Of a stretch of 64,000 bases of DNA, positions 25,897 through 40,736 are shown piece by piece. Origin of the DNA: Methylopila jiangsuensis. GTDB taxonomy: Bacteria > Pseudomonadota > Alphaproteobacteria > Rhizobiales > Methylopilaceae. The notes under the pieces are model-generated. The model saw nothing but the letters and a program-made list of their open reading frames with translations. It was not told where the DNA came from and searched no databases. The stretch spans positions 554,565-618,564 of the forward strand of contig NZ_BSFK01000016.1 in NCBI RefSeq assembly GCF_027922305.1, written 5' to 3'. Both the position numbers and the translations under genes were made by a program. Positions within the stretch are counted from its first letter, which is position 1, and each line of letters begins with the position of its first letter.

Positions 25897-25943
25897 GGGA
25901 GGTCTCCTTGGTCGGCGCGGCCGTGTCGGCCCGCGTTGAGGGT

Positions 25944-25969
25944 TTCGCCGCGGGCGTGGCCGACGTTAC
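25944..25969 (-). promoter_or_regulatory. SigF-type ECF promoter of bufABCD
   Basis: On the minus strand: GTAACG (25969-25964), exactly 16 bases, then CGAAA (25947-25943). The Caulobacter SigF consensus as I recall it is GTAACC-N16-CGAA. Expected transcription start is near 25936, about 40 bases before the bufA ATG. Confidence 0.88.
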
Positions 25970-26005
25970 GTCGTTCACGAAGTCGTGATATCCGGCGATG
26001 GGGAC

Positions 26006-26031
26006 GTAACGCGCCGCAGGCTGCGGTCGTA
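26006..26031 (+). promoter_or_regulatory. SigF-type ECF promoter of the sigF-nrsF operon
   Basis: On the plus strand: GTAACG (26006-26011), 16 bases, then CGTAA (26028-26032). Same -35 box and spacing as the bufA promoter, with one -10 change. It lies about 20 bases before the GTG start of the sigma factor, so the sigma factor probably activates its own gene. Confidence 0.8.
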
Positions 26032-26050
26032 AGGTCCATCGAGGCGGCCG

Positions 26051-26602
26051 GTGATCGAACGGACGAACGACTGGAACGAGCTGATGCAGGCGGCGGGCGG
26101 CGGCGACGAAGCCGCCTATCGCCGGCTGCTGTCCGAGCTCGCCGGTTTCCTTCGGGCGGTGCTGCGGCGGCGGGCGGCGGGCCTCGGCCTTGCGGCGGCG
26201 GAGCTTGAGGACGTGCTGCAGGAGACGCTGCTGGCGATCCACCTCAAGCGCGGCACCTGGGCGCCCGACCAGCCGGTGGCGCCCTGGGTCGCCGCCATCG
26301 CCCGCAACAAGATGGTGGACGCGCTCCGGCGGCGCGGACGCCGCGTGACGGCTCCGATCGAGGATTTCGCCGACACGCTGGCGGCTCCCGAGCCGGCGGA
26401 GGAGCTGTCGTCGCGCGAGGCCGCGCGGCTGCTGGCCGTGCTCAGCGGCCGGCAGCGGCAGGTGGTGGAGGCGTTGACCGTGGAGGGCGAGGACGTGAAG
26501 GCGGTGGCGGGGCGGCTCAACATCAGCGAAGGCGCGGTGCGTGTCGCCCTGCACCGGGGGCTCGCTGCGCTGTCCGCGGCCTACCGGAGCATCAGGGAAT
26601 GA
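26051..26602 (+). CDS. sigF: ECF sigma factor, SigF (ECF16-like)
   Basis: A 183-residue sigma-70 family protein with region 2 (DEAAYRRLLSELAGFL to PWVAAIARNKMVDALRRRGRR) and region 4 (LLAVLSGRQRQVVEAL, VAGRLNISEGAVRVALHRGL). Start is GTG 26051, with promoter just upstream. It overlaps the NrsF-type anti-sigma gene by ATGA, the arrangement of the Caulobacter SigF-NrsF module that controls bufferin genes under copper or oxidative stress. Gene order plus the two matching promoters make the assignment strong. Confidence 0.92.
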   Translation: MIERTNDWNELMQAAGGGDEAAYRRLLSELAGFLRAVLRRRAAGLGLAAAELEDVLQETLLAIHLKRGTWAPDQPVAPWVAAIARNKMVDALRRRGRRVTAPIEDFADTLAAPEPAEELSSREAARLLAVLSGRQRQVVEALTVEGEDVKAVAGRLNISEGAVRVALHRGLAALSAAYRSIRE

Positions 26603-27237
26603 AGACCTCGGACCTCATCTCCGCTTTGGCGGCGGACGCCGGAACGCCGCCCGCCCGGCCGGGTCCGGCGCTGGCGGCCGGCCTCGTCTTGTCCGCGGCG
26701 GCCGCGGCGGCCGCGTTCTTCCTCTGGCTGCATCCCCGGCCCGACGTAGCGCAGGCGGCGGGCACGGCGCGCTTTCTGTTCAAGTTCGCGGAGACGCTGC
26801 TGATCGCAGGCGCGGCGGGCCTTGCGGCGGTGGCGATCGGCCGCCCCGGCGCGTCCTCCGCCGCGGCGATCCGCGCCGCCTTTGTCGCGGGCGGCGTGCT
26901 TCTGGTCGCGGTCGCGGCGGAGCTTGTCACGACCGCGCCTGGGCAATGGCTCTCCCGGCTGGTGGGCCACAACGCGCTGTTCTGTCTGGTGATGACGCCC
27001 GCGCTTTCGGCCGCGCCCCTCGCCATCCTGCTGACGGCGCTCCGGCGGATGGCGCCGGCCTCGCCCGCCCGTCTGGGCTTCGCGGCGGGGGTGCTGGCGG
27101 GGGCGATCGGCGCGACGTTCTACGCGCTGCACTGCCCGGACGACTCGCCGCTGTTCCTGGCGGTCTGGTACGTCGCCGCCATTCTGGGCGTCGGCGGCGC
27201 GGGCGCCGCGATCGGGACGCGCGTTCTGAGGTGGTGA
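26599..27237 (+). CDS. nrsF: NrsF-type membrane anti-sigma factor (DUF1109)
   Basis: A 212-residue inner-membrane protein with six predicted helices and a short cytoplasmic N-terminus (MKTSDLISALAADAGTP) that would hold the sigma factor. Two cysteines, C129 in NALFCLVMTP and C179 in ALHCPDDSP, lie in or near periplasmic loops, at the spacing reported for the two signal-sensing cysteines of NrsF. Release of SigF when these are oxidised or bind metal is the known model; here it is inferred by homology. Confidence 0.92.
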   Translation: MKTSDLISALAADAGTPPARPGPALAAGLVLSAAAAAAAFFLWLHPRPDVAQAAGTARFLFKFAETLLIAGAAGLAAVAIGRPGASSAAAIRAAFVAGGVLLVAVAAELVTTAPGQWLSRLVGHNALFCLVMTPALSAAPLAILLTALRRMAPASPARLGFAAGVLAGAIGATFYALHCPDDSPLFLAVWYVAAILGVGGAGAAIGTRVLRW

Positions 27238-27273: not shown

Positions 27274-28233
27274 TCAGGCGGCCTGGCAGCGGCCGAGCGC
27301 CCAGCGGATCAGCTTGCGCACGTCCGGGTCGGGGTCGTCCATGGCGCGCTCCAGCGCCGGGATCGCCGCCGGCGACGAGATTTCGCCGAGCGCCGCGGCC
27401 GCCTCCTTGCGCAGGTTCGGGATCTCGCTGTCGAGCAGGCCGCCGAGCCTCTCCACCGCGCTTTCGGCCTTCAGACGGCCGAGCGCGTTGGCGGCCTTGA
27501 TCCGCACCTGCCACACCTCGTCGTCCAGCGCGCCGATCAGCGCCATGGTCGCTTCCGGCAGGCGGATCTTGGCGGAGGAGACCGCGGCCTCCTCGCGCAC
27601 CTGCCAGTGCGGATCGGCGAGCCCGGCCACCAGCGTCGAGGCGCCGGGGCCGCCCGGACGCACGAACACCAGCGCCGACATGGTGGCGCGGCGGACGGAA
27701 GGGTCGGCGTCGGAGGCGGTGGCGATCAGCGCCGGCATGGCCTCCTCGGCCTTCAGCCAGCCGATGACGCCGAGACCTTCGCGCCGGACCTCCGGGGCGG
27801 GATTGCGCAGGGCCTTCAGCGCCGCGGCGAGGGCGTCGGGCAGGGTCATCTCCCGCAGCGCCCGGAGAGCGGCCGCCTGCACGAAGGGATCGGAATGCTC
27901 CGCGCGCTCGATCAGCAGCGGCCCGCAGGCCGGCTCCTTCTTGTCGGCGAGCGATTCCGCCGCGGTGAGGCGCACCGCCTCGTCCGGGTCCTCCAGCGAG
28001 GACACCAGCCCCTCCACCACGTCCGGGCCGTCATGCTCGTCGAGGGCCTTGGCGGCGGCGGCGCGCACCTGCGCGTCCGGATCGCCGAGGCCCTTCAGCA
28101 GCAGCACCTTGGCCTCGGGGCCCACCTCCTCGGCGAGCTCCATCATGGCGACCCGGCGGACGCCGGCGTCGGCGTCGGCGGCGCGCTCCTTCAGGTCCGA
28201 GAGATCGTCGTCGAAAGCGTCGAAAACGGGCAT
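27274..28233 (-). CDS. HEAT/PBS-lyase repeat protein
   Basis: A 319-residue soluble protein built of about nine 30-residue alpha-helical HEAT repeats (for example DPDAQVRAAAAKALDEHDGP, DPDEAVRLTAAESLADKKEP, DPSVRRATMSALVF, DDEVWQVRIKAANALGRL, DPDPDVRKLIRWALG). ATG 28233 has TGGAG upstream; longer frames run through the palindromic repeat at 28269. No catalytic residues are seen. HEAT proteins beside iron-sulfur or tetrapyrrole enzymes often act as scaffolds or maturation factors. It follows the AprAB-like genes on the same strand, so a scaffold for that complex is inferred. Confidence 0.87.
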   Translation of the reverse strand: MPVFDAFDDDLSDLKERAADADAGVRRVAMMELAEEVGPEAKVLLLKGLGDPDAQVRAAAAKALDEHDGPDVVEGLVSSLEDPDEAVRLTAAESLADKKEPACGPLLIERAEHSDPFVQAAALRALREMTLPDALAAALKALRNPAPEVRREGLGVIGWLKAEEAMPALIATASDADPSVRRATMSALVFVRPGGPGASTLVAGLADPHWQVREEAAVSSAKIRLPEATMALIGALDDEVWQVRIKAANALGRLKAESAVERLGGLLDSEIPNLRKEAAAALGEISSPAAIPALERAMDDPDPDVRKLIRWALGRCQAA

Positions 28234-28268
28234 GGTGCGAACTCCAAAGGTTCGGCGCAGCGCTCCGC

Positions 28269-28360
28269 CGTCATGCCCGGCCTGTGTTGGGCGTCCACGA
28301 TTTCGGCGTCGGGCGGGCGTCCGCCAAGTCGTGGACGCCCGCCTGTGGGCGGGCATGACG
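28269..28360. repeat. dispersed palindromic element
   Basis: A 92-base imperfect palindrome. The outer arms CGTCATGCCCG and CGGGCATGACG match 11 of 11, and the inner arms GGGCGTCCACGA and TCGTGGACGCCC match 12 of 12. Sequences of this type (GTCATGCCCG...GTCCACGACTT) are scattered between genes in many Hyphomicrobiales. It lies between the ferredoxin gene and the HEAT gene and may form a strong RNA hairpin there. Confidence 0.88.
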
Positions 28361-28367
28361 TGGAGGT

Positions 28368-28601
28368 TCAGCGCAGCAGATAGGGGATGTTGACCTTGAC
28401 GGCGCCGGTCGGGCAGTCCGCCTCGCAGGGCATGCAGTACCAGCACTCGTCGTACTTCATGTAAGCCTTCTTGCGGCCCTCATCGATCGCGAGGATGTCG
28501 AGCGGGCAGACGTCGACGCAGACGGTGCAGCCCTTCTCCGCGATGCACTTGGCCTCGTCCACGACGACGGCGGCGCTTTTCGCCTGGGTGATGATCGGCA
28601 T
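28368..28601 (-). CDS. AprB-like 2[4Fe-4S] ferredoxin
   Basis: A 77-residue ferredoxin with eight cysteines in two sets: C19, C25, C28, C32 (KCIAEKGCTVCVDVCP) and C53, C56, C59, C63 (CWYCMPCEADCP). The longer first spacing and the tyrosine/tryptophan-rich second motif resemble the beta subunit of adenylylsulfate reductase more than generic bacterial ferredoxins, although the long C-terminal tail of AprB is missing. It begins 12 bases after the flavoprotein gene, so the two should form a flavoprotein-ferredoxin complex. Confidence 0.9.
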   Translation of the reverse strand: MPIITQAKSAAVVVDEAKCIAEKGCTVCVDVCPLDILAIDEGRKKAYMKYDECWYCMPCEADCPTGAVKVNIPYLLR

Positions 28602-28613
28602 GGTCGTCTGTCC

Positions 28614-30359
28614 TCACTCGGCCGCGACGGGCGTCTTGACGCGGAGCTGGTGGTAGGCGGCCATCTCCTCTTCCTCGACAGGGACGACGTAGGGGTCGAT
28701 CTCGCGCTTGCGGTGCGACATGCGGCCCTGCTCGTCCTTGTAGAGCATGGTGTGGCAGTACCAGTTCTCGTTGTCGGTCTCGGGGTGGTCGACGCGCAGG
28801 TGGTAGAAGCCCCAGCGGCTCTCCGTGCGGTAGAGCGAGGCGGCCGCCGCCATGTCGGCGCAGTCGAGGATGGTCTGCATTTCGAGCGCGCGCAGCAGCT
28901 CATGCGGGTCGCGGGCGCACAGCTCGGACAGGTCGTCGCGGATCTCCGCGAAGCGGCGCTGGGCGATCTCCATCTTGGCCGTCACCTTCGGCGGCTCCAG
29001 ATAGTCGTTCACCAGGCGGCGGGTCTTGAACTCCATCTCGAACGGGGTCAGCCCGTCCCCGCGGCGGGTCGGGGCCAGCACGCGCTCCTGCTCGGCCTTG
29101 AGGAAGCCCTCGTCGTAAGCCGGCAGATCAACGCCGGCGCAGTATTCGGCGGCGTCCGCTCCGGCGATGCCGCCGTTCACGAAGGCGCCCAGCATGTAGT
29201 TGTGCGGCACGCTCGCCATGTCGCCGACGGCGTAGAGGCCGGGAATGGTGGTGCGGGCGGTCTCGTCGACCCACACGCCCGAGGCCGAATGGCCCGAGCA
29301 GAAACCGATCTCGGAGATGTGCATCTCCACGGGGCGCTTGCGGTAGTCGTTGCCGCGGCGCTCGTGGAAGCGGCCGCGGGACGGGCGCTCGTTGGTGTGC
29401 AGGATGGTCTCGATCTCGGAGATGGTCTCCTCGGCGAGGTGGTCCATCTTGAGGTAGACCGGGCCGTTGCCCGACTGCAGCTCGCGCCAGAACTCCAGCA
29501 TCATCTGGCCCGACCAGTAGTCGCACTCGATGAAGCGGTCGCCCTTGTTGTTGGCCGTGAAGCCGCCGAACGGGCCGGTGACGTAGGCGCAGGACGGGCC
29601 GTTGTAGTCCTTGATCAGCGGGTTGATCTGGTAGCACTCGAGGTTCGCGAGCTCGGCGCCGGCGTGATAGGCCATGGCGTAGCCGTCGCCGCAGTTGGCC
29701 GCGTTCTCGTAGGTGCCGAACATGTAGCCTGAGGCCGGCAGGCCGAGGCGGCCGGCCGCGCCGCAGGCGAGCACCACGGCCTTGGCGCGCACCACCAGGA
29801 ACTCGCCGGTGCGGGTGTTGACGCCGACCGCGCCGGCGATCGCGCCGTCCGGACCCTTCAGCAGCCGGGTGGCCATGTAGCGGTTGGTCACCGCCACCTG
29901 CAGGCGGCGGAGCTGGCGGTAGAGCACCTTCTTGACGTTGTGCCCTTCCGGCATCGGCAGCACGTAGGTCCCCATGTGGTGGACCTTGCGCATGTTGTAC
30001 TCGCCGGAGCCGTCCTTCTCGAACTTCACGCCGAGCTTGTCGAGATACTGGATCATGGGGAAGGAGCCGGTGGCGTAGGCCATCACCGCCTTCTGGTGGA
30101 CGATGCCGTCGTTGGCGACGGTGATCTCCTTCACATACTGCTCGGGCGTGGCGTAGCCCGGCACGACGGCGTTGTTCAGACCGTCCATGCCCATGGAGAT
30201 GGCGCCGGAGCGCTTGACGTTGGCCTTCTCCATCACGAGGACGCGGAGCTTCGGGTTCGCCTCCTTGGCCTTGATGGCGGCCATGGGGCCGCCGGTGCCG
30301 CCGCCGATGACGAGCAGGTCGGTTTCGATGATTTCGGTCTTGGGGTCGCTGCCGCTCAT
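28614..30359 (-). CDS. AprA-like FAD-dependent oxidoreductase (fumarate reductase/succinate dehydrogenase flavoprotein family)
   Basis: A 581-residue flavoprotein. The FAD dinucleotide motif is GGGTGG at 19-24, LACGAAGR and LYAVGDMAS close the FAD domain, and the capping domain lies between. The segment EKANVKRSGAISMGMDGLNN strongly recalls the AprA subunit of adenylylsulfate reductase, and VPHNYMLGAFVNG near residue 386 aligns with the AprA active-site histidine segment. No sat, qmoABC or dsr gene is present, so dissimilatory sulfate reduction is unlikely. It is co-transcribed with DUF971, AprB-like ferredoxin and probably the HEAT gene. Substrate unknown; sulfur or sulfonate chemistry is one option. 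Confidence 0.82.
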   Translation of the reverse strand: MSGSDPKTEIIETDLLVIGGGTGGPMAAIKAKEANPKLRVLVMEKANVKRSGAISMGMDGLNNAVVPGYATPEQYVKEITVANDGIVHQKAVMAYATGSFPMIQYLDKLGVKFEKDGSGEYNMRKVHHMGTYVLPMPEGHNVKKVLYRQLRRLQVAVTNRYMATRLLKGPDGAIAGAVGVNTRTGEFLVVRAKAVVLACGAAGRLGLPASGYMFGTYENAANCGDGYAMAYHAGAELANLECYQINPLIKDYNGPSCAYVTGPFGGFTANNKGDRFIECDYWSGQMMLEFWRELQSGNGPVYLKMDHLAEETISEIETILHTNERPSRGRFHERRGNDYRKRPVEMHISEIGFCSGHSASGVWVDETARTTIPGLYAVGDMASVPHNYMLGAFVNGGIAGADAAEYCAGVDLPAYDEGFLKAEQERVLAPTRRGDGLTPFEMEFKTRRLVNDYLEPPKVTAKMEIAQRRFAEIRDDLSELCARDPHELLRALEMQTILDCADMAAAASLYRTESRWGFYHLRVDHPETDNENWYCHTMLYKDEQGRMSHRKREIDPYVVPVEEEEMAAYHQLRVKTPVAAE

Positions 30360-30393
30360 GGGCCGGATCTCGCTGTCGGAGGGGAGGGCGGCG

Positions 30394-30756
30394 TCAGGCC
30401 GCGCGGGCGGGGGCGGCGGTCTCGGTCGCCAGCCGGCGCAGATAGGTCCAGGGGAAAATCCCCCGGTCGTGCCCGTCGGAGAAGGTCAGATGGACCGCGT
30501 AGCCGCCGAGCGGCTCGACGCCGGTCACCGCCACCGCCTCGAAGGCGGACGGGAAACGGTCCTCGACGCGGGCCCGCGTGCACCAGGCGCAGCGGCAGGC
30601 GAGCCGCATGGCCTCGGCGCCCACGACGCCGGAGCCGCCGTCGCGCCAGGTAAGGGCGAGTTCGCGACCGCCTTTGCGCAGCGTCGCCTCGTCCGGCGTG
30701 TCGGCCGGATCGAACGGCGGCGTCTGGGCGGCCAGAGCGGCGAGGGGATGGTCCAT
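30394..30756 (-). CDS. DUF971 family protein
   Basis: A 120-residue protein with the DUF971 (GBBH-like N-terminal) fold: ELALTWRDGGSGVVGAEAM, the cysteine cluster LACRCAWCTRAR, and GGYAVHLTFSDGHDRGIFPW-like sequence near the end. In most family members the cluster is LRxxCxCAxC, so the metal-binding cysteines are kept. Free-standing DUF971 proteins often accompany iron-sulfur assembly genes. It is the first gene of the AprAB-like operon, 34 bases upstream of the flavoprotein, and may help load its partner ferredoxin with clusters. Confidence 0.85.
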   Translation of the reverse strand: MDHPLAALAAQTPPFDPADTPDEATLRKGGRELALTWRDGGSGVVGAEAMRLACRCAWCTRARVEDRFPSAFEAVAVTGVEPLGGYAVHLTFSDGHDRGIFPWTYLRRLATETAAPARAA

Positions 30757-30816
30757 CGCGCTGTCTCCCGTGTCGTTTGGATGAATTCAAAGTCGCGGGA
30801 GACAGGTCCGGGGGAC

Positions 30817-30830
30817 AGCAATTAGTTGCT
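30817..30830. promoter_or_regulatory. dyad element upstream of the DUF971-AprAB operon
   Basis: AGCAATTAGTTGCT is a 14-base near-perfect palindrome 61 bases before the DUF971 start. Its reverse complement AGCAACTAATTGCT shares GCAACTAAT with the element in front of the ABC importer at 34523. It is a candidate binding site for the Crp/Fnr-type regulator encoded at 33680. Confidence 0.5.
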
Positions 30831-30865
30831 CACCGGGCCGCGTCGCCGCGGAGCCGGGCCCGACG

Positions 30866-30881
30866 GGGCAACTTGTTTCCT
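30866..30881. promoter_or_regulatory. second dyad element, upstream of the hybrid kinase
   Basis: GGCAACTTGTTTCC (30867-30880) is an imperfect dyad with the same GCAACT half as the elements at 30817 and 34523. It lies about 95 bases before the hybrid kinase start in the divergent control region. Weak by itself; reported because the half-site recurs. Confidence 0.35.
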
Positions 30882-30975
30882 CGCCCGGAACCGGTAAACC
30901 TGAGGGTCCGCGTGACTTTTGCGGGCGCGCGCCTAGTTCCGCACCGATCGCTCCGCCGCGGGTTCAGCCATTTCC

Positions 30976-33582
30976 ATGCCCTCATCCGACGACCACAGGT
31001 CGCGCACGCCCCTCCCGCAGACCGCGGCCGAACTGCTGGCGCGCGAGACGGCGCGGGGCGATTCGCTGCTGGGTCCGGCCGCGGACTGGCCGCCGGCGCT
31101 GCGCGCGGCGCTCGACCTTCTGATGTCGGCTGAGGCGCAGATCGTCATGTTCTGGGGGCCGGACTATGTGGCGCTCTACAACGACGCCTACGCTCCCAGC
31201 ATCGGCTCCAAGCACCCCGGCGCCTTCGGCCGGCCGGCGCGGGAGAACTGGTCGGAGCTGTGGGACGATCTCGAGCCGCTGCTGCGCTCCGTGCGCGAAA
31301 CGGGACAGACGATTTCGGCCAGGGACCGGCCGTTCCGGCTGGCGCGGTTCGGCAGGGAGGAGACGGTCTATTTCGACATCTCCTACCAGGCGCTGCACCA
31401 CGAGGACGGCGCGGTCGCCGGCGTGCTCTGCATCGTCAGCGAGACCACCGAACGGGTGCTGACCGAGCGGCGGCTCAACTTCGCCATCGAGCTCGGCGAC
31501 CGGCTGCGCATGCTGTCCGAACCCTCCCGGATCAAGGCGGCCGCCGCCGAAACGGTGGGCAAGCGGCTCAACGCCGACCGGGCGGGCTATGCGGAGTTCT
31601 CCGACGACGAGGCGACGTTCGAGGTCGTGCGCGTCTGGACGCGCGACGGGGTGCCGGCCTTCGGCGGCGCGCACGCCCTGTCGCGCTTCGGCCCGGATCT
31701 GCACGTGCGGCTGAAGTCCGGCGAGCCGCTCGTCATCGCCGATGTGGACAACGAGCCCGAGGAGGGGCGCGAGGCGTTCCGCGCCATCTCCGTGGGCGCG
31801 CTCGTCGCCGCGCCGCTGGTCAAGGCCGGGCGGCTCCGGGCGGTGTTCTTCGCGCACTCCTGCGCCCCGCGATCGTGGGAGGCGACCGAGATCGGCATGG
31901 TCGCCGAAGCCGCCGAACGCACCTGGGCCGCGGTGGAGCAGGCCCGCGCCGAACGCCGGCTGAGCGAAAGCGAGGCCCGCTACGAGGCGATCGCCAATTC
32001 GGTGGACCAGATGATCTGGTCCACCCTGCCGGACGGCTTCCACGACTACTACAACGACCGCTGGTACGAGTTCACCGGCGTGCCCTACGGGTCGACCGAC
32101 GGCGAGGCGTGGAACGGCATGTTCCATCCGGACGACCAGGAGCGCGCCTGGACGCGCTGGCGTCACAGCCTCGAGACCGGAGAGCCGTACTACATCGAGT
32201 ATCGGCTGCGGCACCGTTCCGGCGGATACCGCTGGGTGGTGGGCCGGGCGCAATGCGTGCGCGACGCCGCCGGCGCGATCACCCGCTGGTACGGCACCTG
32301 CACCGACGTCCACGACCTGAAGATGGCCGAGGCCCGGCTCCGGGAGCTGAACGAGACCCTGGAGGCGCGGGTCGCCGCCGAGGTGGCGGAGCGTCAGCAG
32401 GCGGAGGAGGCGCTGCGCCAGGCCCAGAAGATGGAGTCGCTCGGCCAGCTCACCGGCGGCGTGGCGCACGACTTCAACAACCTGCTGCAGGTGGTGGTCG
32501 GCAATCTCGACATCCTGAAGCGCAACCTGCCGCCGGAGGCGCCCCGCCTGATCCGCGCCGCCGACAACGCCATGACCGGCGCCCAGCGCGCCGCGACGCT
32601 GACCCAGCGCCTGCTGGCCTTTTCCAGGCGGCAGCCGCTGGCGCCCCAGCCGACCGACCCGAACCGGCTGGTGGCCGGCATGGTCGACATGCTGTCGCGC
32701 ACGCTCGGCGAGACGGTGGAGCTCACCACGGCGCTCTGGGCCGACGCGTGGCGGGTGGAGGTCGACCCGAACCAGCTCGAGGCGGCGCTGATCAATCTCG
32801 CGGTCAACTCCCGCGACGCCATGCCGGGCGGCGGCAAGCTCACCATCGAGACCGCCAATGTGGATCTCGACAGCCGTTACGCCGCCGAACACGCCGAGGT
32901 CCGGCCGGGCCAGTATGTGGCGCTCAGCGTGTCCGACACCGGCGCCGGCATGGACCGCGCCACGGTGGAGCGCGCCTTCGAGCCGTTCTTCACCACCAAG
33001 GAGGTGGGCAAGGGCACCGGGCTCGGGCTCTCCATGGTCTATGGCTTCGTCAAGCAGTCCGGCGGCCATGTGAAGATTTATTCGGAGGCGGGCCACGGCA
33101 CCACGGTGCGCGTCTACCTGCCGCGCTTCACGGGCGCGGACGCGCCGGGCGACGATCCGGTCCCGTCCGCGACGCCGGCGCCCGTGGGATCGAGCGCCGA
33201 AACCATCCTGGTGGTGGAGGACGACGACGACGTGCGCGCCTATTCCGCCGGCGCGCTGCGCGATCTCGGCTACCGCGTGCTGGAGGCCCGGGACGGCGCC
33301 TCGGCGCTCGCCGTTCTCGGGCGCGCCGACGAGCCGATCGCCCTGCTGTTTTCGGACGTGGTGCTGCCGGGCGGCATGAACGGCGAGCAGCTCGCCCGCG
33401 AAGCCCGGACGCTCAGGCCCCGGCTGAAGGTGCTGTTCACCACCGGCTACGCCCGCAACGCCATCGTCCATCACGGACGGCTCGACAGCGGGGTGGAGCT
33501 GATCACCAAGCCCTTCGCCTTCTCCGACCTCGCGGCGCGGGTGCGGGACATCCTGGATGCGGCGGAGCGCGGCCTGCGCTGA
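30976..33582 (+). CDS. hybrid sensor histidine kinase (PAS-GAF-PAS-HisKA-HATPase-receiver)
   Basis: An 868-residue cytosolic protein without membrane helices. Order: PAS (about 35-155, IVMFWGPDYVALYNDAY), GAF (about 165-325), PAS_3 (about 330-450, MFHPDDQERAWTRW), coiled coil, HisKA with H498 in GGVAHDFNNLLQ, ATPase (DTGAGMD, GTGLGLSMVYGFVKQSGG) and a C-terminal receiver with D794 in LLFSDVVLPGG. The VAHDFNNLLQ box puts it in the HWE-adjacent/hybrid HisKA family common in rhizobia. Ligand unknown. It stands between the AprAB-like operon and the Crp regulator; no separate DNA-binding response regulator is adjacent. Confidence 0.88.
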   Translation: MPSSDDHRSRTPLPQTAAELLARETARGDSLLGPAADWPPALRAALDLLMSAEAQIVMFWGPDYVALYNDAYAPSIGSKHPGAFGRPARENWSELWDDLEPLLRSVRETGQTISARDRPFRLARFGREETVYFDISYQALHHEDGAVAGVLCIVSETTERVLTERRLNFAIELGDRLRMLSEPSRIKAAAAETVGKRLNADRAGYAEFSDDEATFEVVRVWTRDGVPAFGGAHALSRFGPDLHVRLKSGEPLVIADVDNEPEEGREAFRAISVGALVAAPLVKAGRLRAVFFAHSCAPRSWEATEIGMVAEAAERTWAAVEQARAERRLSESEARYEAIANSVDQMIWSTLPDGFHDYYNDRWYEFTGVPYGSTDGEAWNGMFHPDDQERAWTRWRHSLETGEPYYIEYRLRHRSGGYRWVVGRAQCVRDAAGAITRWYGTCTDVHDLKMAEARLRELNETLEARVAAEVAERQQAEEALRQAQKMESLGQLTGGVAHDFNNLLQVVVGNLDILKRNLPPEAPRLIRAADNAMTGAQRAATLTQRLLAFSRRQPLAPQPTDPNRLVAGMVDMLSRTLGETVELTTALWADAWRVEVDPNQLEAALINLAVNSRDAMPGGGKLTIETANVDLDSRYAAEHAEVRPGQYVALSVSDTGAGMDRATVERAFEPFFTTKEVGKGTGLGLSMVYGFVKQSGGHVKIYSEAGHGTTVRVYLPRFTGADAPGDDPVPSATPAPVGSSAETILVVEDDDDVRAYSAGALRDLGYRVLEARDGASALAVLGRADEPIALLFSDVVLPGGMNGEQLAREARTLRPRLKVLFTTGYARNAIVHHGRLDSGVELITKPFAFSDLAARVRDILDAAERGLR

Positions 33583-33679
33583 ACGGGCATCACCGCCGCG
33601 TGACGCGCCATTCCCGTGACGAACTTTAGAATGATGCTATGCTTTGTTGCAGCGCAGCGCCCGTTGCGAGGAAGCCGGC

Positions 33680-34468
33680 ATGCAGTCATCACCCTCTTCG
33701 TCGTCCTCCGCCTGGCCGCCCCGGCTGAACGGCGGCGTTCCGGACGCGGACGCGGCGGGCGCGCTGCTGCTGGCGGACGCGGAGACCGGCGGGCGCGGCA
33801 TGCGGCCGCTGCTGGCGGACCTGACAGAGGCCGAGAAGGCCATGGTCTACGCCCGCGGAACCCGCAAGGTGCTCTATCGCGGCGCCACACTGTTCGCGCA
33901 GGAGACCGCCCATGACGGCATCTATCTGATCGAGACCGGCCGCATCCGGGTGTTCTACGCCGCCGCGTCGGGCCGCGAGATCACGCTGGCCTACTGGTAT
34001 CCGGGCAATTTCGTGGGCGGGCCGGAGGTGTTCGGCGCCGGCGTTCATGTGTGGTCGGGCATGGCGGCCAGCAACAGCTCGGTGCTGCATCTGCCCGGCC
34101 GGGCGGTGAAGGACCTCGCCCGGCAGATCCCTTCGCTCGCCATCGGCCTGATCGAGGGCGTGGCTTTCAAGGGCAAATGCTATTCGGCGCTGGCGCAGAT
34201 GCTCGGCACCCGCTCCATCACCGAGCGGCTCGCCCATCTGCTGCTGCACCTCGCCGATCTCTACGGCGTGCCGGACGAGGAGGGGGGCGTGGCCATTGCG
34301 GCCGCCTTCACCCATGCGGACCTGGCGCACATGGTGGGCGCCACCCGGCAGTGGATCACCATCAGCCTGAAACGGCTGGGGGAGCAGGGCGTGGTGCGCA
34401 GCCATCGCTCCCAGATCGTGCTGCTTCGCCCGGACGTTCTGGCGCAGATCCGCAGCGAAGGCGCTTAA
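33680..34468 (+). CDS. Crp/Fnr family transcriptional regulator
   Basis: A 262-residue regulator. ATG 33680 has GAGGAA 6 bases upstream. After a disordered N-terminus of about 40 residues comes a cyclic-nucleotide-binding beta-roll (GATLFAQETAHDGIYLIETGRIRVFYAA, REITLAYWYPGNFVGG). The Fnr iron-sulfur cysteines are missing. The helix-turn-helix FTHADLAHMVGATRQWITISLKRL has a non-standard recognition helix (TRQWITISL instead of the usual TRETVSR), suggesting a target unlike TTGAT-N4-ATCAA. It directly precedes the ABC importer operon and is the best candidate for binding the dyads there. Confidence 0.88.
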   Translation: MQSSPSSSSSAWPPRLNGGVPDADAAGALLLADAETGGRGMRPLLADLTEAEKAMVYARGTRKVLYRGATLFAQETAHDGIYLIETGRIRVFYAAASGREITLAYWYPGNFVGGPEVFGAGVHVWSGMAASNSSVLHLPGRAVKDLARQIPSLAIGLIEGVAFKGKCYSALAQMLGTRSITERLAHLLLHLADLYGVPDEEGGVAIAAAFTHADLAHMVGATRQWITISLKRLGEQGVVRSHRSQIVLLRPDVLAQIRSEGA

Positions 34469-34470
34469 CA

Positions 34471-34504
34471 GGCGGGCGACGGCCGGTCGCGGCGCCGCCT
34501 TTTT
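34471..34504 (+). terminator. probable terminator after the Crp-type gene
   Basis: A two-part stem (GGCGG with CCGCC outside, GCGAC with GTCGC inside) followed directly by TTTTT. There is a four-base bulge on the 3-prime side, so strength is uncertain. Confidence 0.5.
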
Positions 34505-34522
34505 CACCAGGCCGGTTTTCTC

Positions 34523-34567
34523 GGCAACTAATCAACCCGGAACCGCGATCTGGATTTGCTCCAAATC
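34523..34567 (+). promoter_or_regulatory. operator-like dyads upstream of the ABC importer
   Basis: GGCAACTAATCAAC (34523-34536) carries the GCAACTAAT core of the element at 30817. Seventeen bases further on, GATTTGCTCCAAATC (34553-34567) is a perfect 6+6 dyad with a 3-base centre. Both lie 70-120 bases before the start of the substrate-binding protein gene, the right place for operator sites. Assignment to the neighbouring Crp-type regulator is inference. Confidence 0.5.
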
Positions 34568-34639
34568 AAACCTCGAAGGGATCATCCCCTTGCCGGCCAG
34601 ACGGGCCGTCCCGGATGCCCCTGACAAGCGAGGTGAGCC

Positions 34640-36061
34640 ATGCCGCCACTCCGCATCTTGCGCGCCGCCGTTTCCGCCGTCGCCCTGGCCGCCGCCAGCG
34701 CCGCGGTCGCGCCGCCCGCCGTAGCCGAAACGCTGACCATCGGCATCGGCACGCAGGACACCACCACCAACACCGTCACCACCGGCGTGGTGATCCGCCA
34801 GCTCGGCCTGCTGGAGAAGCGTCTGCCCAAGGACGGCAAGTACGCCGGCCTCGACATCAAGCTCGACTGGCAGAACTTCACCTCCGGCCCGCCGGTCACC
34901 AACGGCATGATGGCCGACAAGCTGCAGTTCGGCGGCATGGGGGACTATCCGCTGGTGGTGAACGGCTACACCTTCCAGAACAACAACGAGAGCAAGTCCG
35001 CGCTGATCGCCGTCGCCGGCTACAACATCTACGGGTCCGGCAACGGCGTCGTGGTGCATTCGGATTCGCCTTACTTCGCGCTTGAGGACCTGAAGGGGAA
35101 GGTCGTCAGCGTTCCCTTCGGCTCCGCCGCCCACGGCATGCTGCTGAAGGCGATGCAGGACGCCAAGATGCCGAGGGACTTCTTCCAGCTCGTCAGCCAG
35201 AGCCCCGAGGTCGGCACGACGAACCTGAAGGAGAAGAAGATCGACGCCCACGCCGACTTCGTGCCCTTCGCGGAGCTGCTGCCGTTCCGCGGCTTCGCCC
35301 GCAAGATCTTCGACGGCGTGCAGACCAACCTGCCCACCTGGCACGGCGTGGTGGTGCGCACCGATTTCGCGGAGAAGTATCCGGAGATCGTCGAGGCCTA
35401 CGTGCAGGCCGTCATGGACGCCAACGAGTGGGTCAGGGCCGATCCGAAGCGCGCCGCCGAGAAGATCTCGGAATGGACCGGCACCGACAAGGAGGTGGTC
35501 TACATCTTCCTCGGGCCGGGCGGGATCATGACCCTCGACCCCACCATCAAGGCGCCCCTGATCGACGCCGCCAAGGAGGACGTGAAGGTTCTCCAGAACC
35601 TCGACCGCATCAAGGGGGCGTTCGACGTGGACGGCTGGGTCAGGGACGGTTTCGTCCGCGCGGCCTACAAGGCTCGCGGCCTCGACTACGACGCGGCGAA
35701 GGCCGCGACCGACAATTACGAAGTCAAGGGCCAGGATCCGTTCTGCAAGAAGCCGATCACCGAACCGCGCAAGGCCGGCGAGATCTGGGTCAAGGACGGA
35801 GACATCACCCCTTACGCCAGCGCCTCCTGCGCGCTCGCCGCCCTGCGCGACCTGAAGGCCAAAGGCGCCGCCGTCAACGTGGCCTACGTCTTCGACGCCG
35901 CCCGCGGCATCAAGCTGTTCGCCGACAAGGCGTTCTACGTGACCGGCGCGGCCGAGCTCGCGCCCTTCATGCTGAAGCAGGACGCCGAGGCCTACGCCGC
36001 CAAATCCGGCGGCAAGGTGGTTCCGTTCGAGGAGGCGCTCGCCTCCGCGACCGCAGGGTGA
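34640..36061 (+). CDS. ABC importer substrate-binding protein (SsuA/TauA-like) fused to a NosL-like domain
   Basis: A 473-residue exported protein. Residues 1-29 are a signal peptide. Residues 30-350 form a NMT1/SsuA-like binding protein (TLTIGIGTQDTTT, YAGLDIKLDWQNF, DLKGKVVSVPFGSAAHGML, HGVVVRTDFAEKYPEIVEAYV), the family for nitrate, sulfonates, taurine and thiamine precursors. Residues 365-468 look like NosL: KAGEIWVKDGDITPYASASC, then AYVFDAARGIKLFADKAFYV and KQDAEAYAAKSGGKVVPFEE. NosL is a copper chaperone of nitrous oxide reductase; here C369 stands where its metal-binding cysteine is expected, but the adjacent methionine is absent. The fusion suggests a metal or metal-complex ligand, or a sulfonate carrier with an added metal function. 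Confidence 0.82.
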   Translation: MPPLRILRAAVSAVALAAASAAVAPPAVAETLTIGIGTQDTTTNTVTTGVVIRQLGLLEKRLPKDGKYAGLDIKLDWQNFTSGPPVTNGMMADKLQFGGMGDYPLVVNGYTFQNNNESKSALIAVAGYNIYGSGNGVVVHSDSPYFALEDLKGKVVSVPFGSAAHGMLLKAMQDAKMPRDFFQLVSQSPEVGTTNLKEKKIDAHADFVPFAELLPFRGFARKIFDGVQTNLPTWHGVVVRTDFAEKYPEIVEAYVQAVMDANEWVRADPKRAAEKISEWTGTDKEVVYIFLGPGGIMTLDPTIKAPLIDAAKEDVKVLQNLDRIKGAFDVDGWVRDGFVRAAYKARGLDYDAAKAATDNYEVKGQDPFCKKPITEPRKAGEIWVKDGDITPYASASCALAALRDLKAKGAAVNVAYVFDAARGIKLFADKAFYVTGAAELAPFMLKQDAEAYAAKSGGKVVPFEEALASATAG

Positions 36062-36066
36062 GCCCG

Positions 36067-36969
36067 ATGAGCCGCGCGATCCTTTCCGCCGCGCCGCCGC
36101 CCGACCTTGGGCCGGCCGCGCCCCCTCCGGCCGCGCCCGGCGGCGGCGCGGCGGCTCCCGAGGCGCAGCCGTCGGCGTGGACCCGCCGGCTGCGCCGCCA
36201 TGGCGGCGCGATCCGCGCCGGCCTCGTGGGCGCGGCCTCCATCGCGCTGTTCGTGCTGGCCTGGCATGTGGTGACCGAGAACCGGATGAACCTCTATGTC
36301 CGGTTCGGCAACGTGCCGTCGCCCTCGGACGTGCTGGCGAGCGCGGACGCCGCGCTCGGAAGCTCCCAGTTCCTGACGCACATCCTCACCAGCTGCCGAC
36401 GCATCCTCTACGGCTTCGCCCTCGCCGCGGCGCTCGCCATCCCGCTCGGCCTGCTGATGGGGCGGTTCAAGCTGCTCCGGGAGATGATCTTCCCTGTCTC
36501 CGAAGTGCTGCGCCCGATCCCGGCGATCGCCTGGGTGCCCATGGCGATCATGCTGTGGCCCTCGAACGAGGAGTCGATCGTGTTCATCACCTTCCTCGGC
36601 TCGTTCTTCCCGATCCTGCTGAACACGCTGCACGGCATGGCGACGGTCGATCCCGTGCTCGGCCGCGCCGCCCGCTGCCTCGGCGCGAGCGAGGCGGCGG
36701 TGTTCCGGGAGGTCTACCTGCCCGCCACCCTGCCGCAGATCTTCACCGGGCTGACGGTCGGCATGGGCGTGGCCTGGGTGTCGCTGATCGCCGCCGAGAT
36801 GATCTCCGGCCAGTTTGGCATCGGCTACTTCACCTGGGAGGCCTACAGTCTGGTGCAGTATCCCGACATCGTGCTGGGCATGATCACCATCGGCCTGCTG
36901 GGGCTCGCCTCCAGCTTCGCGATCCGACTGCTCGGCCGCGTGCTCATGCCGTGGAGCGCCGCCCGATGA
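36067..36969 (+). CDS. ABC importer permease (SsuC/TauC-like)
   Basis: A 300-residue membrane protein. The first 45 residues are a proline/alanine-rich cytoplasmic extension; about six helices follow. The cytoplasmic coupling loop EAAVFREVYLPATLPQIFTGLTVG, preceded by AARCLGAS, is the EAA motif of binding-protein-dependent importers of the nitrate/sulfonate/taurine class. Start 5 bases after the binding-protein stop; overlaps the ATPase gene by 4 bases. Confidence 0.92.
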   Translation: MSRAILSAAPPPDLGPAAPPPAAPGGGAAAPEAQPSAWTRRLRRHGGAIRAGLVGAASIALFVLAWHVVTENRMNLYVRFGNVPSPSDVLASADAALGSSQFLTHILTSCRRILYGFALAAALAIPLGLLMGRFKLLREMIFPVSEVLRPIPAIAWVPMAIMLWPSNEESIVFITFLGSFFPILLNTLHGMATVDPVLGRAARCLGASEAAVFREVYLPATLPQIFTGLTVGMGVAWVSLIAAEMISGQFGIGYFTWEAYSLVQYPDIVLGMITIGLLGLASSFAIRLLGRVLMPWSAAR

Positions 36970-37886
36970 GCGCGATCCCCCTCTTCCGCCGTGACGAAGC
37001 CAAGGCTCCGGCGGCCGCCGCGTCCGCGCCGAAGCCCAAGGGCGGCCTGGTGGAGGTGACGGACTTCCGCCTGCGCTACGACAGCGCCGAAGGCGCGGTC
37101 GACGCCGTGACCGACGTGTCGCTCACCATCCGGCCGGGCGAGTTCGTCTCCATCATCGGGCCGTCCGGCTGCGGCAAATCCACTCTGCTGAACGCGCTGG
37201 CGGGCTTCCTCAAGCCCACCAGCGGCACGGTGACGGTGGATGGCGAGCCGGTGAAGGGGCCCGGCGCCGACCGCGGCGTCATCTTCCAGCAGTATTCGCT
37301 GTTCCCCTGGAAAACCGTGCGGGAGAACGTGGAGTTCGGGCTGAAGATGAGGGGCGTGGGCCGGGCGGAGCGCGCCCGCGCCGCCCGCACCCTGCTCGGC
37401 CTCGCCGGATTGTCGGCCTTCGAGAACCATTATCCGGACCGTCTGTCCGGCGGCATGAAGCAGCGCGTCGGCATCGTGCGGGCGCTCGCCACCGGGCCGC
37501 GCATCCTGCTGCTGGACGAGCCGTTCGGGGCGCTCGACGCCCAGACCCGGCTGATCATGCAGCAGATCCTCACCAACATGTGGCAGAGGCTCAAGATCTC
37601 GGTGCTGTTCATCACCCATGATCTGGACGAAGCGATCTTTCTTTCCGACAGAATTTATGTAATGACCTCCCGCCCCGGGACCGTGAAGGCGGAGATCGCC
37701 GTGCCGCTGCCGCGGCCCCGCGAACCGGCGATGACCATGTCGTCGGAATTTCTCGCCCTGCGACGCGGGCTGATGTCGCTGATCCGCGAGGAAAGCCTTA
37801 AAGCCATGGGCGGCGAGATCAGCGAGGAGGCCCTGCAGGGCCTCGCCATCAATCTCGACGGGCAGGACATTCCGCGCGTGCTGTGA
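36966..37886 (+). CDS. ABC importer ATP-binding protein (SsuB/TauB-like)
   Basis: A 306-residue ATPase. Walker A GPSGCGKSTL, Q-loop FQQYSLFPWKTV, signature LSGGMKQRVGIVRAL, Walker B ILLLDEPFGALD and H-loop ITHDLDEAIFLSDRI are all complete. The FPWKTVRENVEFGL segment is typical of the nitrate/sulfonate/taurine subfamily. A 50-residue C-terminal extension follows the core. With the fused binding protein and permease it makes a full importer. Confidence 0.95.
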   Translation: MSAIPLFRRDEAKAPAAAASAPKPKGGLVEVTDFRLRYDSAEGAVDAVTDVSLTIRPGEFVSIIGPSGCGKSTLLNALAGFLKPTSGTVTVDGEPVKGPGADRGVIFQQYSLFPWKTVRENVEFGLKMRGVGRAERARAARTLLGLAGLSAFENHYPDRLSGGMKQRVGIVRALATGPRILLLDEPFGALDAQTRLIMQQILTNMWQRLKISVLFITHDLDEAIFLSDRIYVMTSRPGTVKAEIAVPLPRPREPAMTMSSEFLALRRGLMSLIREESLKAMGGEISEEALQGLAINLDGQDIPRVL

Positions 37887-37922
37887 CGCCGGCGGATCGC
37901 ATCTACTGGGAAAGCGCGTTCG

Positions 37923-38261
37923 ATGACGTATGTGGTCACGGAAAACTGCATCAAGTGCAAGTACATGGACTGCGTCGAAGTGTGTCCGGTGGACTGCTTC
38001 TACCTGGGCGACGAGACGCTGGTCATCAATCCGGACGAGTGCATCGACTGCGGCGTCTGCGAGCCCGAATGCCCCGCGGAAGCCATCAAGCCGGACACCG
38101 AGCCCGGCATGGAGGGCTGGATCGCCTTCAACGCCAAATACGCCGCGGTGTGGCCCAATGTGACCGAGAAGGGCGACACGCCCGAGGACGCCAAGGACTG
38201 GGACGGCAAGCCGGGCAAGCTGGAGGCCGTGTTCGGCTCCGCCGACCCCGCCGCGGCCTGA
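37923..38261 (+). CDS. fdxA: 7Fe ferredoxin FdxA
   Basis: A 112-residue ferredoxin. [20 protein letters not shown] followed by [16 protein letters not shown] is the [3Fe-4S][4Fe-4S] pattern of Azotobacter-type FdxA, and the tail [21 protein letters not shown] is standard for alphaproteobacterial FdxA. It starts 36 bases after the importer ATPase gene, close enough for read-through. A low-potential electron carrier; its nearest likely reductase is the Fpr encoded 160 bases downstream. Confidence 0.95.
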
Positions 38262-38280
38262 GCCGTACGTCCGACCGTCA

Positions 38281-38294
38281 GGGCGCATGCGCCC
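38281..38294. repeat. perfect 14-base palindrome between fdxA and fpr
   Basis: GGGCGCATGCGCCC is a perfect palindrome, nested inside a wider inverted pair GTCCGA (38269-38274) and TCGGAC (38303-38308). It lies 19 bases after the fdxA stop. It may be a weak transcript end (no uridine run) or a protein site. Confidence 0.45.
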
Positions 38295-38388
38295 ATGCGC
38301 TATCGGACATGGCGTTTCGCGTCGGATCGCGCCATATGACGGCGCGGGAACGGAATGGCCCTTTCAACACGTTTTCGGAACGTAAATT

Positions 38389-38399
38389 AGAACGGTTCT
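38389..38399 (+). promoter_or_regulatory. short dyad just upstream of fpr
   Basis: AGAACGGTTCT is an 11-base palindrome centred about 30 bases before the fpr ATG, in an AT-richer stretch (ACGTAAATTAGAACGG). It could be an operator for a redox regulator of fpr. No known consensus was matched. Confidence 0.3.
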
Positions 38400-38423
38400 G
38401 AGCACGAAGTCGGACGAGAAGCG

Positions 38424-39197
38424 ATGAGCAAATATCTCGAAGAGCGGGTGACGAGCGTCAGGCACTGGACGGACACGCTGTTCAGCTTCCGCACCACGCG
38501 CGATCCGTCGTTCCGGTTCCGCAACGGCGAGTTCACCATGATCGGCATCGAGGTCGAGGGCCGGCCGCTGGTGCGCGCCTATTCGGTGGCCACCGCCAAT
38601 TACGACGAGGAACTGGAGTTCTTCTCCATCAAGGTGCCGGACGGCCCGCTTACCTCGCGGCTGCAGCACCTCAAGGTGGGCGATCCCATCCTGGTCGGCC
38701 GCAAGCCCACCGGCACCCTCGTCATCGACAACCTGATCGCCGGCAGGCACCTGTATCTGCTCGGCACCGGCACCGGCCTTGCGCCGTTCCTGTCGATCAT
38801 CAAGGACCCCGAGGCCTATGACCGCTTCGACAAGGTGATCCTGGTCCACGGCTGCCGCCATGTGAACGAGCTCGCCTATGGCGAGATGATCACCGAGGAC
38901 CTGCCCAAGGACGAGCTGATCGGCGAGCTGATCCGCGAGAAGCTGATCTACTACCCGACCGTGACCCGCGAGCCGTTCCGCAACCGCGGCCGCATCACCG
39001 ACCTGATGGCTTCGGGCAAGCTGTTCGAGGACATCGGCCTGCCGAACATGTCGATCGAGAACGACCGCTTCATGCTGTGCGGCAGCCCGGACATGATCCG
39101 CGACACCCGCCAGCTGCTGGTGGACGGCGGATACGAGGAAGGCAACCACGGCGAGGCCGGCCATTTCGTGATCGAGAAGGCCTTCGTCGAGAAGTGA
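38424..39197 (+). CDS. fpr: ferredoxin-NADP+ reductase Fpr
   Basis: A 257-residue FAD enzyme of the bacterial subclass I. FAD-binding RAYSVATANYDEE near residue 52, NADP-binding GTGTGLAPFLSIIKDPE near residue 113, VHGCRHVNELAYGEMI, LCGSPDMIRD and the C-terminal aromatic-free end FVIEKAFVEK are the hallmarks. It moves electrons between NADPH and ferredoxin or flavodoxin. It is closed by a strong terminator. Neighbouring fdxA is a plausible partner. Confidence 0.96.
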   Translation: MSKYLEERVTSVRHWTDTLFSFRTTRDPSFRFRNGEFTMIGIEVEGRPLVRAYSVATANYDEELEFFSIKVPDGPLTSRLQHLKVGDPILVGRKPTGTLVIDNLIAGRHLYLLGTGTGLAPFLSIIKDPEAYDRFDKVILVHGCRHVNELAYGEMITEDLPKDELIGELIREKLIYYPTVTREPFRNRGRITDLMASGKLFEDIGLPNMSIENDRFMLCGSPDMIRDTRQLLVDGGYEEGNHGEAGHFVIEKAFVEK

Positions 39198-39545: not shown

Positions 39546-40736
39546 ATGAAAATTCTGCTGGCGAACTCCCTGTTTCCCGACCTCGGGATCGGCGGATCGG
39601 AGCAATCGACCTACTATCTCGCGCGGGGTCTGCGGCAGCTCGGGCACGACGTCTGGGTGTTCAGCCAGAACGTGCATGACGCCACCGTCACCGAAGACAA
39701 GGACGGCATTCACGTCATCCGCTACGCCGCCCGTCCGGGCAGCGAGCCCAACATCTACGCCGAGCCCTATTACCAGCGCCTCGCCGCCGCTTCGCAGAAG
39801 GCCTATCCGCTCGACAAGCAGCTCGCGGAGACGATCAAGGCGTTCAAGCCGGACATCGTGAACACCGCCGTGGTCGGGCGCCTCACCTCGCTGTGGCAGA
39901 TGACCAAGAGCCTCGGCGTGCCCTGCGTCCACACGCTGCGCAGCTACACCTCGCTCTGCAACCGGCGCATGATCGTGGACCAGAAGCCGTGCCTGCGGCA
40001 GTGCCGGGACTGCAACCTCGCCCGCGTCGCCGGCCGCGAGCGCTCCAACGTGGTCGACGGCGTCATCGGCATCAGCTCCCACATCCTCAAGACCCATCTG
40101 CGCTCGGGCTGGTTCCGGGAGACGCCGCAGCGGACCGTGATCGCCAACTCCTACGAAATGGACGCGCCCATCGCCGCCGCGACCGGGGCGGAGCGGCCCT
40201 ACGAGTTCGGCTACATCGGCCGCCTGCATCACACCAAGGGCGTGGAGCTGTTCCTGGAGGCGCTGACGGCGCTGCGCGCCCAGACCGGGCGCAAGCATCC
40301 GACGCTGATCGCCGGCGCCGGCGATCCGGGCTTCGAATGGAAGCTGCGCAAGCGCTTCGAGGACGAGAACACCCGCTTCGCGGGCTACATCTCCCCGAAC
40401 GATTTCTTCGCGCAGATCCGCTACTGCGTGGTGCCCTCGATCTGGTTCGAGCCGTTCGGCCGCATCTTCATCGAGAGCCTGCACCATGGCGTGCCGGTGG
40501 TGGGCTCCAGCCGCGGCGGCGGCGCGGAAATCCTGAAGGAGGGCGAGACCGGCTGGCTGTTCGAGCCGGAGGTCGCGACGCTGAAGGAGGCGCTGCGCAA
40601 GGCGAGCCAGGTGGACGACGCCGGCTACGACCGCCTGCGGCAGGCGGCGCTGTCCAGCGCCGAGGACTACGGGGTGCTCGCCATCGCCCGCCGGTATGAG
40701 AGCTTCTACGCCGCCGTGCGGGAGACCGCGCGATGA
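39546..40736 (+). CDS. glycosyltransferase family 4 protein
   Basis: A 396-residue GT-B enzyme. ATG 39546 opens with MKILLANSLFPDLGIGGSEQ, the normal donor-side start of this family. The C-terminal half has FGYIGRLHHTKGVELFLEAL, the EX7E element in PSIWFEPFGRIFIESLHHGVPVVGS and EGETGWLFEPE. A cysteine cluster CLRQCRDCNLAR near residue 155 is often seen in GT4 enzymes of exopolysaccharide loci. The gene overlaps the next by 4 bases (ATGA), so the two act together in a surface polysaccharide or glycan pathway. The sugar cannot be predicted. Confidence 0.9.
   Translation: MKILLANSLFPDLGIGGSEQSTYYLARGLRQLGHDVWVFSQNVHDATVTEDKDGIHVIRYAARPGSEPNIYAEPYYQRLAAASQKAYPLDKQLAETIKAFKPDIVNTAVVGRLTSLWQMTKSLGVPCVHTLRSYTSLCNRRMIVDQKPCLRQCRDCNLARVAGRERSNVVDGVIGISSHILKTHLRSGWFRETPQRTVIANSYEMDAPIAAATGAERPYEFGYIGRLHHTKGVELFLEALTALRAQTGRKHPTLIAGAGDPGFEWKLRKRFEDENTRFAGYISPNDFFAQIRYCVVPSIWFEPFGRIFIESLHHGVPVVGSSRGGGAEILKEGETGWLFEPEVATLKEALRKASQVDDAGYDRLRQAALSSAEDYGVLAIARRYESFYAAVRETAR

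Follow-up and report, generated by a model that had tools for sequence, protein, structure and literature searches.

What does a protein pair resembling AprAB, the two subunits of adenosine 5'-phosphosulfate (APS) reductase, do beside an ATP-binding cassette (ABC) importer in an alphaproteobacterium? The question is raised by a locus at positions 27274-39197 of a 64,000-nt stretch of Methylopila jiangsuensis DNA (contig NZ_BSFK01000016.1, positions 554,565 to 618,564; hereafter the window), which belongs to a 3.7-Mb genome. Leftward, the locus carries an operon in the order DUF971, AprA-like flavoprotein, AprB-like ferredoxin and HEAT protein; rightward, it carries a hybrid kinase, a Crp-type regulator, a binding protein with a NosL-like domain, a permease, an ATPase, FdxA and Fpr. 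All these genes, first named from the bare letters of the DNA (the sequence-only reading), have sound reading frames and family matches. The flavoprotein is 93% identical to a relative in Methylopila and 92% identical to one in Hansschlegelia. We find that the enzyme and importer genes form one real and widespread bacterial module. Whether this module takes up and reduces an organic sulfur oxyanion, with a sulfonate as the likeliest candidate, and thereby releases sulfite, we judge to be about an even call.

Co-occurrence and spread of the gene set

To the extent that the two operons seldom occurred together, the link drawn between them from their proximity would be in doubt; we observed the opposite. 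Profile searches of 299 evenly drawn Pseudomonadota genomes, the window genome included, detected the flavoprotein in 18; the 17 genomes with the binding protein are a subset of these 18 (Fisher p ~8e-27, in genomes that are related and thus not independent). The 17 binding-protein genomes were called at E <= 4.5e-192, and no further genome reached E <= 1e-30. We then inspected the 20-kb surroundings of the 17 other carriers and those of the best 80 of at least 596 flavoprotein relatives (some of the 80 loci end early at contig ends). Within ~10 kb, the AprB-like, HEAT and DUF971 genes were present in 17/17 evenly drawn carriers each, the ATPase in 16, and the permease and the binding protein in 15; in the best 80 loci we counted 80 AprB, 80 HEAT, 72 ATPase, 70 binding-protein, 69 permease and 61 DUF971 genes. 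In Burkholderiales the order is often a single run of flavoprotein, AprB, HEAT, FdxA, binding protein, permease, ATPase, DUF971 and Fpr. Co-occurrence and synteny thus uphold the proposal that the two halves are one system. FdxA (35/80 and 4/17 loci) and Fpr (29/80 and 7/17) stand in one run with other system genes in many loci, and are members of the system in a subset of carriers only. The hybrid kinase, by contrast, had been counted as a part and has to be dropped, as matches of >50% identity occur only in L003 and L120 of the 80 and 17 loci.

The set is also found on annotated plasmids of eight genera and three phyla (51 PLSDB records are plasmids carrying it), for which the gene tables are incomplete. 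It is present on plasmids of Cupriavidus, Methylobacterium and Acinetobacter. On an Acidithiobacillus caldus plasmid the importer genes lie ~5 kb off and the incomplete gene table shows no DUF971; the equally incomplete tables of Cupriavidus and Tsukamurella likewise show none. The system's importer is not within 11 kb on a Mesorhizobium japonicum plasmid. Plasmids of Pseudanabaena and Leptolyngbya carry Mrp/NBP35 in the place of DUF971, after HEAT, followed by YeiH and TauE/SafE. The Tsukamurella plasmid encodes a fusion of flavoprotein and HEAT protein of 893 residues (PRK13800, 1568 bits, cut-off 1196), which is good evidence for a fixed partnership of enzyme and HEAT protein. Residues 49-313 of the window HEAT protein match positions 631-895 of the same fusion model. 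This fusion and the cyanobacterial Mrp/NBP35 help the suggestion, made before from the letters, that HEAT would act as a scaffold and DUF971 in cluster loading. C54, C56 and C59 of DUF971 are kept in 72/80 homologues. A search for viral carriers gave 61 pattern matches and zero true relatives.

Different regulators accompany the set. A Crp gene occurs in 20/80 and 8/17 loci, and GntR genes in 54 of the 80; in 8 others of the 17, a GntR-UTRA gene lies directly upstream of the flavoprotein. The cyanobacterial sets carry LysR regulators (L088 7670-9670, 666 residues; L089 7394-9430, ~680 residues). The one from Pseudanabaena (L088) has an added, weak NMT1-type binding domain (21.1 bits, below the cut-off of 24.7) and may therefore sense the imported compound itself. 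In the 30 Crp-bearing loci (605 kb), the pattern GCAANTANTTGC, which was found in these same loci and counted without a shuffle control, has 50 sites with <=1 mismatch, 42 of them at system gene starts, and such a site precedes a system gene in 27 of these 30 loci. In the window alone, its 14-base form with one mismatch was found 2 times against 0.65 expected, i.e. not above chance. The shared upstream motifs claimed for the window stand in part: a perfect palindrome, GCAATTAGTTGC, precedes DUF971, and in five other loci (L006, L017, L068, L073, L119) the enzyme side and the binding protein each have a site before them, but the window's own binding protein is preceded by the half-site GGCAACTAATCAAC only, at whose place L006, L008, L073 and L119 hold exact sites. 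Judging from its position and recurrence, the palindrome is a probable site of the Crp-type regulator.

Table 1. Features of the locus, in window coordinates
Feature	Position	Strand	Basis
HEAT-repeat protein, 319 aa	27274..28233	-	PF13646 170.2 bits
AprB-like ferredoxin, two [4Fe-4S] sites, 77 aa	28368..28601	-	Fer4_7 match
AprA-like flavin adenine dinucleotide (FAD) flavoprotein, 581 aa, PRK08275 family	28614..30359	-	NF006131 1064.7 bits, cut-off 587
DUF971 (GBBH-like N) protein	30394..30756	-	PF06155 72 bits
Palindrome GCAATTAGTTGC, before the DUF971-flavoprotein operon	30818..30829		probable Crp-type regulator site
Hybrid kinase	30976..33582	+	family match
Crp/FNR-type regulator, start codon uncertain	33644..34468	+	cNMP_binding, HTH_Crp_2
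Half-site GGCAACTAATCAAC, degenerate palindrome copy before binding-protein gene	34523..34536		site comparison across loci
Substrate-binding protein, TauA/SsuA-type domain and C-terminal NosL-like domain	34640..36061	+	NMT1, NosL
ABC permease, nitrate/taurine/sulfonate type	36067..36969	+	BPD_transp_1; ntrB, SaoP, TauC, SsuC models below cut-off
ABC ATPase, taurine/nitrate type	36966..37886	+	SaoA, TauB, ntrCD models, below cut-off
FdxA ferredoxin, probable electron carrier	37923..38261	+	NF045490 160 bits, cut-off 135
Fpr-type ferredoxin-NADP reductase, probable electron entry	38424..39197	+	PRK10926 171.7 bits, below cut-off 390

The HEAT gene starts at ~28233 rather than at 28446, where the long open reading frame begins. 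In the gap between the AprB-like and HEAT genes (28269-28360) there is an inverted repeat with 35-base arms that are 80% complementary and separated by 22 bases; the core of this repeat, CCGGGCATGACGG, is found at one place in the window. Next to the locus, the region 24700-27237 encodes an MbnB/TglH-type enzyme (PF05114) of ribosomally synthesised and post-translationally modified peptides, a DUF2282 precursor, an extracytoplasmic function sigma factor and an NrsF anti-sigma protein; it resembles a bufferin-type cluster, separate from the set studied here. On the other side, a 694-aa protein (40733-42817) with zero Pfam matches at E 0.001 adjoins a glycosyltransferase gene.

The AprAB-like enzyme

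The flavoprotein family (NF006131/PRK08275) carries the database name fumarate reductase/succinate dehydrogenase flavoprotein subunit, although it has no established function. By sequence and fold, its nearest solved relatives are the 3'-phosphoadenosine 5'-phosphosulfate (PAPS) reductase 8a8o, followed by APS reductase (template modelling (TM) scores of 0.85/0.89 and 0.83/0.76, respectively). 8a8o is the best PDB match, with 264.6 bits in the profile search and 28% identity in the fold alignment. As the AlphaFold model (mean predicted local distance difference test, pLDDT, 77.2) is poor at residues 46-60, 209-221, 253-260 and 324-334, we used it for the fold only and not for the pocket. In the AprB-like protein, the cysteines C19, C25, C28, C32, C53, C56, C59 and C63 and the tryptophan W54 are present in 105/105 homologues, and Trp54 aligns with the Trp of the CWxC motif of AprB (3gyx chain B). 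With eight cysteines and relay Trp kept, the electron route to FAD looks intact, and the enzyme looks ferredoxin-linked, as had been proposed, with FdxA and Fpr in the run. Six loci (L043 16742-20332, L052, L054, L057, L070, L087), mostly of sulfur oxidisers, also encode a relative of glutamate-synthase-type oxidoreductases of ~1200 residues, perhaps an alternative electron donor.

The residues that would contact the substrate are different from those of the known reductases. Arg265 of AprA, the residue that holds the substrate, is retained in PAPS reductase and replaced by L248 here. Lys120-Arg121-Ser122 of PAPS reductase, which align with Val126-His127-His128, and the Gln145 loop of AprA are described as substrate residues (the former for the 3'-phosphate) in PMC10322725. 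L248 and V126-H127-H128 hold in 30 homologues. Among nine sequences from three phyla, the R265-equivalent is Leu in 9/9, and N62, Y217, Q244, N246, K250, D251, N253, H357, H386 and Y388 are likewise identical, while K125, H128 and H347 vary. The loop at the position of Gln145 reads KVHHxGxYVLPMP in Proteobacteria, and QVHR or RVHR in two cyanobacteria and Tsukamurella. Near N5 of FAD, AprA has Asn74 and His398; Asn74 aligns with N62, and H357 is matched by the PAPS-reductase alignment only, both being invariant.

The database name suggests an enzyme of the succinate dehydrogenase/fumarate reductase type, which shares the superfamily; we consider this scarcely credible. The His of the QxHP motif, the substrate residue of SdhA/FrdA, is Asn246 here; compared with the flavoprotein family, FrdA has its catalytic Arg on an inserted loop; and sdhA_frdA_Gneg gives 155.5 bits against a cut-off of 567.3. 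APS reductase was rejected on scores (aprA 140 bits against 641.75, aprB 37.2 against 135.65) and on the loss of R265 and the Gln145 loop, in agreement with the earlier statement that the pair must do something else; a PAPS reductase of the MtPAPSR type was rejected on its replaced Lys120, Arg121 and Ser122. By the residues tested, the protein thus belongs neither with the APS/PAPS reductases nor with the fumarate reductases. The reported lack of sulfate-reduction genes holds genome-wide for sat (no match to PF01747), and no gene exceeds the aprA cut-off; the search did not extend to dsr and qmo. The window genome does carry two PAPS_reduct genes of the CysH/CysD type. As judged from its sequence, the enzyme represents a separate branch within the APS/PAPS-reductase superfamily, one that goes with an importer of the sulfonate type.

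The imported compound and its proposed fate

Four proteins lead the sequence matches of the binding protein, namely TauA, SsuA, SsuA and a Xanthomonas SsuA that was deposited as a nitrate transport protein (TauA 6ssy, E 1.2e-24). The top 8 fold matches of its model (mean pLDDT 91.5) are all TauA/SsuA chains (target TM 0.68-0.87). Its scores stay below the curated cut-offs (SsuA_fam 126.6 against 163.5; TauA 64.8 against 304.25). Together with the family matches of permease and ATPase, these best matches agree with the small-anion type assigned to the importer before; the unusual small anion imagined there may be narrowed by the gene neighbourhoods to a sulfonate-like compound. The alternative offered at the same time, import of a metal complex, found no support. 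The NosL Pfam match of the C-terminal domain (25.8 bits, cut-off 24) and the cysteine pair C369/C397 could point to a system for uptake and redox conversion of copper or a metal complex. The homologues share the NosL-like domain, but the cysteine pair is found in 33/91 of them. Both cysteines are missing in the other 58, which counts against a general copper role, the binding domain is of the TauA/SsuA type, and no metal gene is among the annotated recurrent neighbour clusters; we therefore regard such a system as very improbable. A homologue has either both cysteines or neither, and there may be two importer subtypes.

Sulfur-type genes lie near the set in a part of the loci. Probes for YeiH, TauE/SafE, an NtaA/DmoA-type flavin mononucleotide (FMN) monooxygenase, TauD and SsuA-like proteins, the system genes themselves excluded, had matches in 30/80 and 7/17 loci and in 0/40 control stretches taken from 11 of these genomes (Fisher p 5e-7 for the 80 loci and 7e-5 for the 17), a comparison that is partly circular because the probes were chosen from neighbourhoods that included the 17 test loci. 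YeiH lies beside the system in 18/80 and 4/17 loci, e.g. in Stutzerimonas (L047) inside the gene run between DUF971 and Fpr; in the window genome, a YeiH gene lies on another contig. The exporter-type genes would also fit an oxidative direction, in which the AprAB-like pair turns sulfite from sulfonates into sulfate that YeiH exports. AprAB can operate in reverse in sulfur oxidisers, and such oxidisers, e.g. Thiobacillus and Acidithiobacillus, are among the carriers. On the other hand, the homologues examined have neither AprA R265 nor the APS loop, the window genome has no sat (PF01747), and Fpr and FdxA suit electron delivery better than removal; this direction is unlikely.

A non-sulfur small anion (nitrate-, carboxylate- or phosphonate-like) may instead be imported and reduced by the same module, with the sulfur neighbours incidental. 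Among the models, one for nitrate permeases gives the highest score for the permease and SaoA the highest for the ATPase; the GntR-UTRA regulator is similar to HutC and PhnF (scores below cut-off), and an amidase probe matches in 6/80 and 2/17 loci. However, the binding protein is nearest to TauA/SsuA by sequence and fold, the enzyme is nearest to sulfur enzymes, and YeiH or TauE/SafE adjoin the system in unrelated lineages, cyanobacteria included. We consider a non-sulfur anion doubtful, though a serious possibility.

Several findings weigh against reductive sulfonate use, besides the circularity of the probes. Ten of the 17 evenly drawn loci are without any probe-set sulfur gene, which also favours a non-sulfur anion; the 7 loci with a match (4 by YeiH, of which 3 in a single genus, 2 by TauD and 1 by SsuA) represent 4 genera, the FMN-monooxygenase probe has zero matches in the 17 loci, and YeiH, with 137 bits against the TIGR00698 cut-off of 232.6, owes its role to annotation. 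More than half of the loci are without FdxA and Fpr. One genome (G270) carries the flavoprotein without a binding protein anywhere, in another (G028) the binding protein is 2.9 Mb from the flavoprotein, and the binding-protein frame of a third (G012) holds an internal TGA. The substrate Arg of AprA is Leu here, and the chemistry may therefore differ. Finally, many of the carriers come from aerobic lineages that possess oxygenases for the common sulfonates, so that the need for a reductive route is uncertain.

If the module does reduce a sulfonate, the TauA/SsuA-like binding protein, permease and ATPase would import it, and electrons would pass from reduced nicotinamide adenine dinucleotide phosphate (NADPH) through Fpr, FdxA and the two clusters of the AprB-like subunit to FAD in the AprA-like subunit; in loci without FdxA and Fpr, a general cellular ferredoxin would have to stand in. 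FAD would attack the sulfur of the substrate and set sulfite free, following the FAD N5-sulfite chemistry proposed for APS/PAPS reductase. The sulfite would enter cysteine synthesis, with excess leaving through YeiH or TauE/SafE exporters in some lineages. HEAT would be the enzyme's constant partner, the clusters of the enzyme would be served by DUF971 (in cyanobacteria by Mrp/NBP35), and a Crp- or GntR-UTRA-type regulator would control the set. More tentatively, in a proposal that could well be wrong, the enzyme may be the first flavin-based reductive desulfonase, derived from AprAB, fed by NADPH-Fpr-FdxA, tied to HEAT and cleaving the C-S (or other S-X) bond of an imported sulfonate independently of O2 in Proteobacteria, Cyanobacteria and Actinobacteria.

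Significance and relation to known systems

Sulfonates make up a large share of soil organic sulfur. A reductive desulfonase would give a function to a whole family that is now named fumarate reductase/succinate dehydrogenase flavoprotein subunit, and even with another substrate, the close association of one importer with a HEAT protein and an AprAB-type enzyme marks a clear, as yet unassigned metabolic system, in a compact and mobile gene set that is open to direct genetic testing. O2-independent routes to sulfonate sulfur are few, according to the list in PMC11423573. The gene set is apparently undescribed so far: we found no earlier description in the open-access literature, which leaves subscription papers outside and is not proof. 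The Bradyrhizobium sulfonate operons bll6449-6455 and bll7007-7011, considered as possible earlier sightings, were set aside, since the literature found gave no link to the set.

Among transporters, the organometallic SAO transporter SaoXPA (PMC13188914) comes close in that SaoA and SaoP are among the best models for ATPase and permease; it was rejected with all scores below cut-off (SaoX 23.9/300, SaoP 145.3/295, SaoA 258.7/360). TauABC and SsuABC share the binding-protein core and the types of permease and ATPase, but the present system has an extra NosL-like domain, scores below the cut-offs and an AprAB-like enzyme instead of an oxygenase. In Rhodobacter capsulatus, the isethionate reductase IsrBHDK likewise releases sulfite reductively and has an ABC importer for sulfonates next to it, and is a precedent for reductive desulfonation of sulfonates by another enzyme type; it differs in its nitrogenase-like enzyme and radical SAM protein and in being anaerobic (PMC11423573). 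IsrHDK and IsrB are not named in the plasmid feature lists, which are incomplete tables, and no model search was made for them.

Among enzymes, dissimilatory AprAB is alike in fold, cluster cysteines and relay Trp, whereas here the beta subunit has 77 aa, R265 and the Gln145 loop are lost, and the genome is without sat. The PAPS reductase of Methanothermococcus thermolithotrophicus (8a8o) is alike in its FAD, its small two-cluster subunit and its assimilatory setting (PMC10322725); in our system, in contrast, an importer and a HEAT protein accompany the enzyme, and both the Lys-Arg-Ser triad and the Arg at the R265 position are replaced.

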